This document shows positions 3,021 to 11,395 of a stretch of DNA of 39,863 nucleotides, piece by piece. The position numbers and the translations under genes are program-made. The notes beneath the pieces are model-generated. The model made no database searches. It was not told the origin of the DNA and was given only the letters and a program-made list of their open reading frames with translations. Position 1 is the stretch's first letter; every line of letters starts with the position of its first letter. Location: positions 1 to 39,863 of the forward strand of contig JAGHVE010000161.1 in NCBI GenBank assembly GCA_018064445.1, written 5' to 3'. The stretch comes from Candidatus Cacconaster equifaecalis (lineage in GTDB: Bacteria; Bacteroidota; Bacteroidia; Bacteroidales; UBA932).

Positions 3021-3368
3021 ATGGCAACAACAAATTTTATTGCAACGATGACTGTCAGCGAATTTATTGACAGCCTCAACAAGGCGGGGTTGATTATATG
3101 CAAGGAGCCTCAACCCGAACCCAAAGAAAAGCCTTTGGATTTTTCGGACAGCAGCCGTTTTGGATGCGGACTTCAAGCAATTCAAAATCGGTATGGTGTC
3201 AGCGTTCTGACTGCACAGAGGTATAAGTCTGGGATTCTGTCCCCTGCGGTCTTTCAGGTTTGCCGAGGTGGTAAATTTTACATTGACTATGAGAAGGCGG
3301 ACAAAATCCTCAAGGAGAAAAAGCCAAAGATGTATGATAAAGAAAGACGCTCAACCGTTTCCGATTGA
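3021..3368 (+). CDS. DUF3853/AlpA-like helix-turn-helix DNA-binding protein (possible excisionase/regulator)
   Basis: FGCGLQAIQNRYGVSVLTAQRYKSGILSPAVFQVCRGGKFYIDYEKADKIL resembles MerR/AlpA-type HTH proteins of Bacteroidota elements. Confidence 0.65.
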   Translation: MATTNFIATMTVSEFIDSLNKAGLIICKEPQPEPKEKPLDFSDSSRFGCGLQAIQNRYGVSVLTAQRYKSGILSPAVFQVCRGGKFYIDYEKADKILKEKKPKMYDKERRSTVSD

Positions 3369-3498: not shown

Positions 3499-4116
3499 AT
3501 GAAAACCGAAATTCAAAAACAATTCGAGGCTGAAATCAAAGACAGACAGCCGGAAATCTCGCTGGAGTATGAGGAAATCTTCGGGGAACTTGAAGTCTGG
3601 ATTTGTGGCGGAAATTCCGCAGGACTTGTTCTTCGCGGTGGCATCGGTCAGGGTAAGACCACAATGCTTCGCGCAATTTGCAAAATTGTAAAGGCGTTCT
3701 GGACGGAGGAAAGGATATTGACTATCCGTCAGGAACTCCGAAACCCCAACATTAAAAGCATAAGAGCAGACGATTTGCTGCATATCGCACACACAGAGGG
3801 GCGCGAGGGTTTGTTCTATGGTGAACACGCCATCGGACAAGCCGGAGTCCTTTTCATTGATGATTTGGGCGGAGAGACGGAAACAGAGATTCGATTCGAG
3901 GGGTGGAATAAGTCTCACGAGGTATATATCCGGGAAACCATCAGACCGTTTGCGGAACTTCTGACAAGAAGATGTGACAACAATTTGCCGACACTTATTT
4001 CAACCCGGCTCGACAAAACCCAAATTATTGAGCGATACGGAGAGAGCGTTTTCGACAGGCTTTTCGGGAGTTGCAATTGGATTAATATGCAGTTTGTTGA
4101 AGGTGGTTACAGATAG
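3499..4116 (+). CDS. DnaC-like AAA ATPase (helicase loader)
   Basis: Walker A GGIGQGKTT, Walker B VLFIDDLGG, and C-terminal IIERYGESVFDRLFG...EGGYR as in DnaC-type loaders. Confidence 0.75.
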   Translation: MKTEIQKQFEAEIKDRQPEISLEYEEIFGELEVWICGGNSAGLVLRGGIGQGKTTMLRAICKIVKAFWTEERILTIRQELRNPNIKSIRADDLLHIAHTEGREGLFYGEHAIGQAGVLFIDDLGGETETEIRFEGWNKSHEVYIRETIRPFAELLTRRCDNNLPTLISTRLDKTQIIERYGESVFDRLFGSCNWINMQFVEGGYR

Positions 4117-4128
4117 GAGGGTGAAGTT

Positions 4129-5091
4129 ATGGCATCAGCAGAAATCATCAACGAAATTCAAGAGGCGATGGAGGCACCAAAGACGGAATGGAAGAAATCC
4201 CTTTTCGACTTTACGGCAACCATCAGTCAGCCAGAGCCGCTTCTTATGTGCGGAGGAACACGGGCGTTAAGTCGTGAAAATCTGTGTATCATCACAGGGA
4301 AACCGAAAGTTTGCAAAAGCACTTTTTTGTCAGCAGCGATGGCAGCCGGACTATCAGCGCGGAATATCTTGAATATGTCTTCACCAAGGCATCGTAAAAT
4401 CATATTAGCCGACACGGAACAAGCCCCATATCACCTCAAAAGCCAATGTGACAGGGTTTTTCGTCTGGCGGAAATCCGACAAGAATTGTCTGACAACTTC
4501 ACCGTTCTGGCACTTCGCCCTTTCACACCACAAGAAAGGTATTCGTTTGTAATGGATGCTATTGAGGAAATTCGCCCTGACATTGTGGCTATTGATGGCG
4601 TTTCAGACCTTCTTTGCGACAGTAACGACTTGAAGGAATCCGAAAACCTTGTTTCGGAACTTCTGGCCGCTTCAAGCAAATATGATTTGGGGGTTATCTC
4701 AATTCTGCACACAACACCCGGACAGAGCAAACTTCGCGGACATTTGGGGAGTTGTCTCGAAAGGAAGGCGGAATCAGTCGTTCTTCTGGAGAAAGAAGGT
4801 CGTGGAATATGTGTCAAGCCGAAGGAGTGTAGAAACCGAGCCTTCACGGAATTTCGGTTTACCCTCAACGATGAAGGAGATCCGGAATATGATTCACAGG
4901 ACGCAGACCTGACTGCACTCGATTGGCTTTTGGCGATAATGGAGAAGGGAAAGGAATATCGACACGGAGAACTCGTTTCGTTACTCATTGAGAAGGGCAT
5001 CCCAGAAGGTTCCGCGAAATCCGGCCTCAAAGCCGGAGAAAACCAGAAACGCATTTTGAGAGTTGGTAGAGGGATATATACACTTCCTTAA
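4129..5091 (+). CDS. RepA/AAA_25-like ATPase (replicative helicase-like)
   Basis: CIITGKPKVCKSTFLSA Walker A, IVAIDGVSDLL Walker B, VISILHTTPGQSKLRGHLGS. Confidence 0.75.
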   Translation: MASAEIINEIQEAMEAPKTEWKKSLFDFTATISQPEPLLMCGGTRALSRENLCIITGKPKVCKSTFLSAAMAAGLSARNILNMSSPRHRKIILADTEQAPYHLKSQCDRVFRLAEIRQELSDNFTVLALRPFTPQERYSFVMDAIEEIRPDIVAIDGVSDLLCDSNDLKESENLVSELLAASSKYDLGVISILHTTPGQSKLRGHLGSCLERKAESVVLLEKEGRGICVKPKECRNRAFTEFRFTLNDEGDPEYDSQDADLTALDWLLAIMEKGKEYRHGELVSLLIEKGIPEGSAKSGLKAGENQKRILRVGRGIYTLP

Positions 5092-5341: not shown

Positions 5342-6370
5342 ATGGACACCGAAGCAACAATGAGAGCAATTGAAAGCGCAGTCTTTTATAATCCAGAGAC
5401 CGCCACAGGGATTCCGGGTTGGCAGAGGTATGGTGACAGGATGCAGACAAGATTCCGTCCTGATGGCACCGATTCAGGGAGGGCCGACAAGGTTACACTT
5501 CGATTCCGTCCTGAAGGTCTGTATTTGTCATACAACGGAGGTTCATATTGTTCAACTTATATTCGTTCCCTTCTGAAAAAGCGATTCGGTGAAGAATGGA
5601 TTAACACCGTCAAAGGGTTGTATAACATTGACACGGCCTTTACTGAATACTGCGAAGCATATTACAAGCAGCGCACAGAGGGGACGCGCAAGGCAACTGA
5701 TGAAAGGAATCCTGACACCATCCCGGAGAATATAATTGTTCCTACTTACGACACCAACAGACAGGACACCTTGAGGGATTATCTTTCAAGCGTATTCGGA
5801 AAGGATGCAGTCCTTCGGGCGTGGGAACTTTACGGAGTGGGGACAAACATTGAGGCGTGGACTATCTTCTGGCTTTACGACAAAGAAGGCAGATGTCGCG
5901 GGGGAAAGCGGATGATGTATCTTCCAGACGGACACAGGAGCAAAGGCAAAAACGGCATTGTGGCCTGTCATAGTGATTTGATAAAATACGGCAAACTTCC
6001 GAAGGAGTGGAAGTTCAGTTCTTGTTTGTTCGGGGAGCATCTTTTGAAACAATATCCCGAAAAGGTTGTCGGGGTTGTGGAATCCGAAAAGACAGCGATA
6101 ATTTGCTCCATCGTTTATCCGTCAAGTATCTGGATTGCAACAGCGGGACAGAAAATCAACCTCGATAGGGTGAAGTCTGTCCTTCGTGGGCGAAAGGTTG
6201 TTTTGTTTCCTGACGCTGATAGTATTAAGATATGGCAGGAGAAGTTCGATTCGGTTCCGGGATTCACCGTAAACACCATAACTCACGACTACTTCCGCAA
6301 AAAAGGCGAAAATTGGGCGAAATGCGACATCGCGGACATTCTGATACATAATTTATCGTCCAAAGGCTGA
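5342..6370 (+). CDS. DUF6371/Toprim-like primase
   Basis: VVGVVESEKTAIICSIVYPSSIWIATAGQKINLDRVKSVLRGRKVVLFPDAD resembles a Toprim domain (ESEKTA...PDAD). Confidence 0.7.
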   Translation: MDTEATMRAIESAVFYNPETATGIPGWQRYGDRMQTRFRPDGTDSGRADKVTLRFRPEGLYLSYNGGSYCSTYIRSLLKKRFGEEWINTVKGLYNIDTAFTEYCEAYYKQRTEGTRKATDERNPDTIPENIIVPTYDTNRQDTLRDYLSSVFGKDAVLRAWELYGVGTNIEAWTIFWLYDKEGRCRGGKRMMYLPDGHRSKGKNGIVACHSDLIKYGKLPKEWKFSSCLFGEHLLKQYPEKVVGVVESEKTAIICSIVYPSSIWIATAGQKINLDRVKSVLRGRKVVLFPDADSIKIWQEKFDSVPGFTVNTITHDYFRKKGENWAKCDIADILIHNLSSKG

Positions 6371-8289: not shown

Positions 8290-8466
8290 ATGAACAAAGA
8301 GGAATTATTCAAAAAAATCACGGAAATTCAGGACATTATCGTAAGTCTTTACGACAGCGTGAAAACCCCTGTCAATTGTGAGGAGTTATTGATGGCTGCA
8401 AGTGCATTAGTGACCGTCAAAAATGACATAGAAGCCTATTATCGTTTCGTTCCTGAAGGAGTATAG
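8290..8466 (+). CDS. 58-aa hypothetical helical protein
   Basis: MNKEELFKKITEIQDIIVSLYDSVKTPVNCEELLMAASALVTVKNDIEAYYRFVPEGV; below the ORF-track cutoff but has an upstream promoter motif and is followed 4 nt later by the next ORF. Confidence 0.6.
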   Translation: MNKEELFKKITEIQDIIVSLYDSVKTPVNCEELLMAASALVTVKNDIEAYYRFVPEGV

Positions 8467-8470
8467 GCGT

Positions 8471-8701
8471 ATGGAAAAAGAGGAACTGAAGGACACCATC
8501 CCACACGACAGGGCAAAGGATTATCTTATCGTCCTTCTGGAGGCACAGAAGGTTATCACGCAGTTTGCCAACGGATATAAAGCAGCCGATGTGAAGTTTG
8601 ATAGTGGCGAAGCAATCGTCCTTCTTGACGGACTGAATGATATTCGGGCATTTATCGAAGAAGTCACTAAAACCTCGGAAATTGAACTTTTATATTCGTG
8701 A
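8471..8701 (+). CDS. 76-aa hypothetical protein
   Basis: ORF MEKEELKDTIPHDRAKDYLIVLLEAQ..., tightly spaced after the previous small ORF. Confidence 0.6.
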   Translation: MEKEELKDTIPHDRAKDYLIVLLEAQKVITQFANGYKAADVKFDSGEAIVLLDGLNDIRAFIEEVTKTSEIELLYS

Positions 8702-8820: not shown

Positions 8821-9261
8821 TTAAATGGGACTATTTTCACTCATTTTTGTTGAGGCTGACATTGTAATCACAGAATTGTTTCCCTTTGAAAGTTTAATGA
8901 CTTCCTGTAAGTATCTGGAACTGGCATATTCGCTTCCGTCTTTCAATGTTCCGTGTATTTCATATTTGACAACAGCCTTTATTGCGCTATCATTGGCCGT
9001 AAAGGTCTTTTCTTGCCCGACTTGTGGATTCTCCCATCGCTTCTGGTCTATCTTGTTGTTATTAGCATCGTATTCGTAAAAGAAAAGAGTTTCCGTCAAG
9101 TGTGCATCATAGGACAATTTTTGTGCTACAACATCGCGGGCGGAATAGCCGTAATAAAGAGAATAGGTTGAGACTTCCTTCTGTTCCATCGGGGTTTCCC
9201 CTTCCTTTGAACACCCGAAGGCGAGAATCGCAACAATGGCGAGAAATAAGATTTTTTTCAT
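8821..9261 (-). CDS. Putative lipoprotein
   Basis: MKKILFLAIVAILAFGCSKEGETP: signal peptide with lipobox-like AFGC; start taken at 9261 rather than the 9438 given in the track. Confidence 0.75.
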   Translation of the reverse strand: MKKILFLAIVAILAFGCSKEGETPMEQKEVSTYSLYYGYSARDVVAQKLSYDAHLTETLFFYEYDANNNKIDQKRWENPQVGQEKTFTANDSAIKAVVKYEIHGTLKDGSEYASSRYLQEVIKLSKGNNSVITMSASTKMSENSPI

Positions 9262-9313: not shown

Positions 9314-9507
9314 AAAAAAAGCGTGGGTTTTCTTTGTCGCTGATAGAGGTTTTGGCGAAACCCTGACCACGATACAAAGTAAAACCCACGCAGAGCGCAG
9401 GCATTACAACTTGGATCCCCGGTCTTAAAAATCGCCAAATTCCTATCAGGAGATAAAGCCTAATGCTGTATGTCTTGCGCCTGTTCTGGAGGCGCATAGC
9501 AAAATTA
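9314..9507 (-). ncRNA. Candidate structured pseudoknotted RNA (~180 nt) with -7 element and terminator
   Basis: Minus strand: TAATTTTG (9507-9500), 5' hairpin TGCGCCT-N7-AGGCGCA, pairing 9449-9432 with 9358-9340, terminator stem 9391-9374 / 9337-9321, then TTTTTTT. Confidence 0.6.
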
Positions 9508-9563
9508 AGGAAAAGAACTTCAATTTTAAAAAAAAGATTTGATGGTGACGGATAAAATATCAC

Positions 9564-9660
9564 TATCTTTGCCATTGAATCGTTCATCGATTTCTCATAT
9601 TCATAAATGTGCCCGCATTATGCCGGATATTCAGAAATGGATATTCGGCATTTTGTTTTT
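9564..9660 (+). ncRNA. Candidate short transcript unit S2: TATCTTTG + GNRA-loop terminator hairpin
   Basis: TTTG 9538-9541, TATCTTTG 9564-9571; 14-bp hairpin ATGCCGGATATTCA-GAAA-TGGATATTCGGCAT (9620-9651) followed by TTTGTTTTT. Confidence 0.5.
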
Positions 9661-9764
9661 GTCGGTTATAAAATTGGCTTTCAATCACTTACAAGAAGTC
9701 TGTTTATCCTATGAAAATAGGATAATGCAAGTATTTGTATATCAGGCAGTTAGAGAAAATTTTT

Positions 9765-9796
9765 CTTGCATATATGGAATAGCCTCCGTAACTTTG
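9765..9796 (+). promoter_or_regulatory. Promoter of the M41-like gene pair (CTTG-N20-TAACTTTG)
   Basis: CTTG 9765-9768, TAACTTTG 9789-9796, ATG 9818; preceded by the perfect inverted repeat TTATCCTA-N6-TAGGATAA at 9704-9725. Confidence 0.6.
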
Positions 9797-9817
9797 CAGA
9801 AGTAAAATATCAAAATT

Positions 9818-10336
9818 ATGAGAAGTAATAATTATCAGTCCGCCATCCACGAAGCGGCATACCTTTTCGCAAGGTACATTCTATTTAAAAACCTCAACAC
9901 TATTGAGAGCGTCAGTATCTGGAGAAGAAAGGCGCATATCAACTTTGATGCGGATGCGCAACTAAAAGAGTTTCATAAGAGCCGAAACAGGGCGTATGCA
10001 GTAAAGGACTATTGCTGTGACCTTGCCGGAGAGTTTGCAGATGTTTTTGCGGATGAGGACTATCCAAAAAATTGGGAAAATGTCAACGAGGCTAAAAGAC
10101 ATATTACTGAAATGCTCGACCTTTATACTGAAAGAGAGGAAGTCAACAGCCTTGCGGACGAGATTGAGGAACTTGCAAACAATTTCGTTGGTGAGAACTT
10201 CAACACTATTCAATGTATTGCGGATGAGTTGGCAAAAATGTTTAGCGGAACATTGTACCGGAAAGATATTGAGAAAAGATTGGATTGGTGGTTATATGAG
10301 TGCCGTAATGCCATCTATATCCCGAAATTGAATTGA
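9818..10336 (+). CDS. Degenerate M41/FtsH-peptidase-domain-like protein (HEAAY)
   Basis: SAIHEAAYLFARYILF aligns by eye with the M41 HEAGH helix, with the second His replaced by Tyr; C-terminal helices NEAKRHITEMLDLYTEREEVNSLADEIEELANN are M41-like. Confidence 0.6.
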   Translation: MRSNNYQSAIHEAAYLFARYILFKNLNTIESVSIWRRKAHINFDADAQLKEFHKSRNRAYAVKDYCCDLAGEFADVFADEDYPKNWENVNEAKRHITEMLDLYTEREEVNSLADEIEELANNFVGENFNTIQCIADELAKMFSGTLYRKDIEKRLDWWLYECRNAIYIPKLN

Positions 10337-10362
10337 TTTGTAACAGAGATAGGAAAGGGAGT

Positions 10363-10875
10363 ATGAAGATAGGCTTTGAGGAACTGAAGGCTACAATTGC
10401 TCACGAATGGGGGCATTGTCTTATGTATCACCTTCTGGGATATGGAAGATATGTTGAGGACATCGAAATAGAAGCAAACATATCCGGGTTATTCGGTCGC
10501 ACAAGAGTAAACCTTCTTTATGCGGACTGTATCGACATAAATAATCCCGTTGTTCACCTTGTCAATATCCCTGCTCCTGATAACCTTGTGATATTGTATG
10601 CCGGAGTGATTGCGGAAGGAAACCACAAAGGACAAAAGATAAATATCAGCAATACCGATGCGGAAAGAGCCAAAGCATTAGAGCAAAGTAAACGAAAACG
10701 GAGCGAGGCGAGAAAAAGGGCATCAGACCTTCTGGCACCATATTCCGGGGATATTTCAAAACTCGTTGAATTAACACTAAAGAAGGAAGCATATCAGGGG
10801 GAAATCAATTATCTTAAGTTCTACGATAGAATTTTTGCATACGAGGTACGGCAATACCTGAAGGGGATAATCTGA
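10363..10875 (+). CDS. M41/FtsH-peptidase-like zinc metallopeptidase-domain protein (HEWGH), no AAA domain
   Basis: TIAHEWGHCLMYHLLGYG HExxH; VILYAGVIAEGNHKGQKINISNTDAERA resembles M41 AGxxAE...D..xA. ATG 10363 preferred over the TTG 10333 of the track. Confidence 0.65.
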   Translation: MKIGFEELKATIAHEWGHCLMYHLLGYGRYVEDIEIEANISGLFGRTRVNLLYADCIDINNPVVHLVNIPAPDNLVILYAGVIAEGNHKGQKINISNTDAERAKALEQSKRKRSEARKRASDLLAPYSGDISKLVELTLKKEAYQGEINYLKFYDRIFAYEVRQYLKGII

Positions 10876-10931
10876 AAAATTCAAAAAAAAAAATTTTTAG
10901 TGCCTGTAATGGGGGTTGACTTCATTATGAT

Positions 10932-10963
10932 ATAGGGGGGGGGTATGCCCCCTCTATTGTTTT
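10932..10963 (+). terminator. Terminator-like hairpin with a G9 tract
   Basis: ATAGGGGGG / CCCCCTCTAT with loop GGTATG followed by TGTTTT. Confidence 0.6.
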
Positions 10964-11320: not shown

Positions 11321-11337
11321 GTGATTCCACAGGGACT
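11321..11337. repeat. attR: 17-bp direct repeat inside the tRNA 3' end
   Basis: Exact copy of 499-515. Confidence 0.9.
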
Positions 11338-11395
11338 CGAACCCTGAACCTACAGATTAGAAATCTGTTGCTCTATCCAGTTGAGCTATGGAACC
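11322..11395 (-). tRNA. tRNA-Arg (anticodon TCT), CCA not encoded
   Basis: GGTTCCATAGCTCAACTGGATAGAGCAACAGATTTCTAATCTGTAGGTTCAGGGTTCGAGTCCCTGTGGAATCA; stems pair and loop TTTCTAA gives TCT. Confidence 0.95.

Follow-up and report, generated by a model that had tools for sequence, protein, structure and literature searches.

The DNA analysed here, a window of 39,863 nt, contains an integrative element of about 10.8 kb that is bounded by 17-bp direct repeats (GTGATTCCACAGGGACT). The left copy, the attL core (499-515), is an exact match to the right copy, the attR core (11321-11337), and the identity extends no further. The attR core covers the 3' end of a minus-strand tRNA-Arg(tct) gene (11321-11395, ARAGORN), the integration target. 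Two plus-strand open reading frames, referred to as P1 (9818-10336, 172 aa) and P2 (10363-10875, 170 aa), form the final cargo of the element, next to attR on its tRNA-Arg side. The first-pass annotation of this DNA had placed both frames at these positions and the pair beside attR; the frames are recovered as described, and the two repeat copies, the second lying over the tRNA-Arg 3' end, confirm the location.

P1 and P2 are encoded on the same strand and are separated by 26 nt. The motif TAACTTTG (9789-9796, plus strand), located 21 bp 5' of the P1 start codon, conforms to TAnnTTTG, the promoter consensus of the Bacteroidetes -7 type; two TAnnTTTG motifs are found in 9439-9817 compared with 0.29 expected (P 0.03). 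A promoter common to both genes, as suggested previously, is supported by this motif. Downstream of P2, an RNA fold of 10870-10960 contains a strong, terminator-like G/C-rich hairpin on the plus strand (~10932-10957). Based on the short intergenic gap, the upstream TAnnTTTG motif and the hairpins flanking the genes on both sides, P1 and P2 look like one compact, self-contained two-gene transcription unit. For P2, an alternative start is listed at TTG 10333, with ATG 10363, preceded by AGGAAAGG, being the more likely start codon; SAIHEAAYLFARY is present for P1 and ATIAHEWGHCLMY for P2. A second promoter-like sequence, TATCTTTG, is located further upstream of P1 at 9564, and just 3' of it a long near-perfect hairpin (9615-9656) is followed by a T-rich stretch. 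Together, these two features could possibly give rise to a short transcript or an attenuator before P1. That P1 and P2 are halves of a frameshifted single gene was rejected, as each possesses its own full-length M41-like pattern.

Other plus-strand genes of the element are those encoding a tyrosine recombinase (integrase; 693-2063, phrog_1 integrase, E 9.5e-34), a small DUF3853 protein (3021-3368, PF12964, E 2.1e-5) that may be excisionase- or HTH-like, a DnaC-like helicase loader ATPase (3499-4116, phrog_50, E 6e-13), an AAA_25 (RepA-like) ATPase (4129-5091, PF13481, E 3e-6) and a DUF6371 protein (5342-6370, PF19898, E 8.7e-40), possibly primase/toprim-like. Further cargo includes two tandem small ORFs that match no family (8290-8466, 58 aa; 8471-8701, 76 aa). 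A small predicted lipoprotein (MKKILFLAIVAILAFGCSKEG...) is encoded on the minus strand (8821-9261), pointing away from P1 and P2, and is not matched by Pfam. Using the DUF6371 protein as a query, related elements could be located: DUF6371 relatives are present in six of the 39 other genomes of the genus, at 34-51 percent identity over the aligned part, with no P1 or P2 relatives near any of the six. Behind the DUF6371 gene, one related element (L040, 9584-17099) carries SspB-SspC-SspD-PbeA phosphorothioation defence genes and another (L038) type I restriction-modification genes. Because related elements carry known defence systems, a defensive role of the P1/P2 cargo is plausible; this link to defence is formed by two related elements only. 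In a PADLOC search, P1 gave a best E value of 0.004 and P2 no match, and no curated defence model was matched.

Zinc binding in M41 peptidases involves both histidines of the HExxH motif and one acidic residue. In bacterial FtsH, crystallography has identified the third zinc ligand as an aspartate. In a review, the third M41 ligand is given as glutamic acid (PMC8197885). P2 keeps His14, Glu15 and His18 in its HEWGH motif (residues 14-18, nt 10402-10416), and its Asp99 (in SNTDAER, nt 10657) falls into the third-ligand column of the alignment, where AGVIAE followed by SNTDAERA of P2 aligns with GGRxAE...NDLER of FtsH. In P1, the second histidine is replaced by tyrosine (HEAAY, nt 9848-9862) and a gap or valine is found at the aspartate column. 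The HExxH motif and AGVIAE...D..A segment of P2, as well as the lost second zinc histidine of P1, had been pointed out from the sequence alone; both observations stand and are extended by Asp99 as a candidate third ligand in P2 and by the absence of the third-ligand aspartate in P1. Judged from these positions, P2 has the look of an intact enzyme and P1 that of a degenerate one, with the motif assignments drawn from one P1 and one P2 sequence for which homologues were not found.

Known family libraries (Pfam, PHROGs, NCBIfam and PADLOC) were matched only below threshold by P1 and P2, the Pfam M41 model remained unmatched by both even at E 10, and a PF01434 search of this genome gave no match, the gathering score being reached by neither protein. 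Two M41 profiles were used, one consisting of 46 FtsH peptidase domains from related genomes (profile 1) and one in which these 46 domains were combined with four plasmid M41 proteins (profile 2). With profile 1, P1 scores 4.4 bits, a value that 16-19 of 5000 shuffles also reach; P2 scores 6.0 bits, equalled by four of 5000 full shuffles and by 35 of 5000 when the HExxH region was kept fixed. Profile 2 yields 10.6 bits for P1 (0/3000 composition shuffles, both full and motif-fixed) and 9.2 bits for P2 (0/3000 full, 55/3000 motif-fixed), a result that is partly exploratory since its plasmid domains were introduced only once profile 1 had been tested. Only four of 653 real protein segments score equally high on the M41 profile, three of them being fragments of FtsH and the fourth an M78 peptidase. 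Semi-global profile alignment gives z values of 3.3 for P1 and 2.3 for P2; here, 8-16 of 250 shuffles are as good as P2, and P1 does better than P2. The P2 signal beyond the HExxH helix is weak. Matches between the two proteins and M41 domains are collinear and comprise the HExxH helix, a short strand, an A/G-G motif (AE or AD), a D-x-E-R-A segment and the C-terminal helices, with identity to FtsH domains in the alignment being very low (13-29 percent). The M41-type helix and C-terminal helices proposed for both proteins in the first-pass annotation are thus borne out by a collinear, above-chance, though subthreshold, profile signal. Based on these comparisons, P2 is probably related to M41, and for P1 such a relationship appears reasonably likely. 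AlphaFold, run on single sequences since there were no homologues to align, gave models of very low confidence (pLDDT 36.7 for P2 and 39.3 for P1).

The HExxH helix of P2 could also be read as that of an M78 (ImmA/IrrE-like) peptidase, which would cleave a repressor of the element as in Gram-positive ICEs. The sequence TIAHEWGHCL does resemble an M78 helix and an ExEAN motif is found ~20 residues downstream; however, 234 of 3000 shuffles score as well as P2 on an M78 profile, rising to 2799 of 3000 when the motif is fixed, and PF06114 is unmatched, making this assignment very improbable. Assignment to M50B was rejected because membrane segments are lacking: the only match is a weak one to PF13398 (E 0.009), and hydropathy is too low for several membrane helices around HExxH. 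Neither protein contains a transmembrane stretch, the maximum 19-residue hydropathy being 0.7 and 1.4 for the two proteins. As expected from the first reading of the sequence, an AAA module is likewise missing from both, in keeping with lengths of 170-172 aa and the absence of AAA matches.

A separate question is whether P1 belongs with P2 at all. P2 might be the only metallopeptidase of the pair, M41-like or from another HExxH clan, and P1 an unrelated helical protein with a chance resemblance to M41 in its HEAAY and C-terminal helices. The best P1 match is to helical segments, weak P1 matches to unrelated helical families are found, and BLASTP detects no match between P1 and P2 (E 30), which also excludes a recent duplication. 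Against this, none of 3000 shuffles reaches the P1 score on profile 2, and P1 exceeds P2 in the semi-global test; we consider an unrelated P1 unlikely, if still worth weighing.

P1 and P2 are orphans, that is, almost unique genes. Relatives of P1 were not detected in 399 genomes of the family and 197 of the order, nor in viral contigs, phages and plasmids, beyond weak chance-like matches. For P2, searches of 393 order genomes, viral contigs, phages and plasmids returned no relatives, 399 family genomes returned a single spurious match, and a short-word pattern scan of 85,000 species genomes, suited to close relatives only, was likewise negative. Searching 110 family and 109 order genomes with the M41 profiles revealed, besides P1 and P2, only FtsH and unrelated fragments; FtsH itself turned up in almost all of the related genomes covered. 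A number of individual candidates were discarded. A short frame from the profile searches (G041) proved to be a frame-broken FtsH, and three weak whole-genome matches (L002, L004, L005) are unrelated long ORFs. The family phrog_26665 (E 0.011 to P2) has other matches that are not peptidases, the phage match ATCEA85 lies inside a far larger protein and was judged to be due to chance, and matches to RipA in a PDB sequence search were also attributed to chance. Since both proteins are orphans, much of the cargo of gut-type Bacteroidales elements would appear to escape current family libraries.

We infer that P1 and P2 are soluble proteins related to the FtsH peptidase (M41) domain, from which they have diverged strongly, and that they are expressed together as cargo. 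P2 would act as a zinc endopeptidase with His14, His18 and Asp99 as ligands and Glu15 as the catalytic residue. As no unfoldase is attached, P2 would be expected to work without one of its own, cutting a specific exposed substrate. P1 would be a non-catalytic paralogue that joins P2 and provides recognition or restraint, a part played by pseudo-subunits of other proteases. The most likely benefit would be protection of the element or its host, whether by warding off phages or a rival element or by controlling the element. As a whole, this model of a P2 endopeptidase with a non-catalytic P1 partner, serving as two-gene cargo that protects the element or its host, is put forward tentatively and may well be wrong in part. 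The narrower proposal of a regulated, AAA-free heteromeric M41 protease, composed of an active and a pseudo subunit and acting as anti-phage or anti-competitor cargo of a tRNA-integrated element, is doubtful in our view. Parts of this proposal, which goes back to the earlier reading of the locus, do hold, specifically, the M41 signal, a complete P2 next to a degenerate P1, their apparent organization as one unit and their position next to an att site, where relatives of the element carry defence systems; P1-P2 interaction, P2 activity and a defence function would come in addition, as predictions of the model.

The arrangement of two small adjoining genes on a mobile element, with the degenerate one first, is also what would be seen if P2 were an M41-like toxic peptidase and P1 a dedicated inhibitor or antitoxin acting as a domain mimic, the two forming an addiction module that retains the element. 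Known toxin-antitoxin families, however, match neither protein, and a homologous pair was not found elsewhere in the genomes searched; such a module seems rather unlikely. It could further be suggested that P1 and P2 join or block the peptidase ring of the host FtsH, thus shifting host degradation to the benefit of the element. The resemblance is to the peptidase domain of FtsH itself, an enzyme encoded in nearly all related genomes, but identities of 13-29 percent make mixed assembly uncertain and both the membrane anchor and the AAA docking segment are absent, so that interference with host FtsH is quite unlikely. Should the model of a P2 endopeptidase with a non-catalytic P1 partner be correct, the FtsH peptidase domain would have been freed from its motor and would act as an active/inactive pair on mobile DNA, and the two genes would be a candidate new protease-based defence or addiction module. 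To our knowledge, regulation of M41 proteolysis by such an active/inactive pair is not known in bacteria.

Compared with the FtsH M41 domain (PF01434), P1 and P2 share the order of an HExxH helix, an IxxVxI-like strand, an A/G-G-x-x-A-E/D motif and C-terminal helices, and P2 additionally shares the (N)D-x-E-R-A segment. In contrast to P1 and P2, which are shorter and fall below the Pfam threshold, FtsH carries an AAA module and a transmembrane part, and P1 further differs from it in lacking two ligand positions. Pseudo-subunits are established in proteolytic complexes, examples being ClpR and chloroplast FtsHi (PMC8197885). In the chloroplast FtsH12/FtsHi complexes, active and inactive M41 subunits cooperate, as proposed here for P2 and P1; unlike these, FtsH12/FtsHi are full-length AAA proteins in plant membranes with the AAA part doing the work (PMC8197885).

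A scan of plasmids with the FtsH M41 domain identified AAA-less M41 proteins in Vibrio and split AAA/M41 genes in Pseudorhizobium. The Vibrio proteins, encoded on IncC-type plasmids (WP_017190392.1 and WP_305803697.1; 358-359 residues, annotated as hypothetical; L098, 1479-2558, and L099, 1494-2570), resemble the pair in being M41 proteins without AAA on mobile DNA, but differ in possessing N-terminal hydrophobic segments and a clear Pfam M41 match and in being single genes. From such annotated plasmid records it follows that the AAA-less M41 state is already known. An M41-like second gene is not found beside the plasmid M41 genes in the stretches listed. AAA-less M41 proteins therefore have a precedent on plasmids, while an active/pseudo M41-like pair without AAA is a new variant. 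In the split FtsH-like pair of plasmid NT26_p1, consisting of an AAA gene and WP_065814610.1, M41 is likewise found on its own polypeptide, but the partner gene encodes an AAA ATPase and part of the AAA lid is retained in the M41 gene, whereas P1 and P2 would be two M41-like partners with no adjacent AAA gene. On NT26_p1, a conjugative plasmid of Pseudorhizobium (L097, 1-2579), the AAA and M41 genes overlap.
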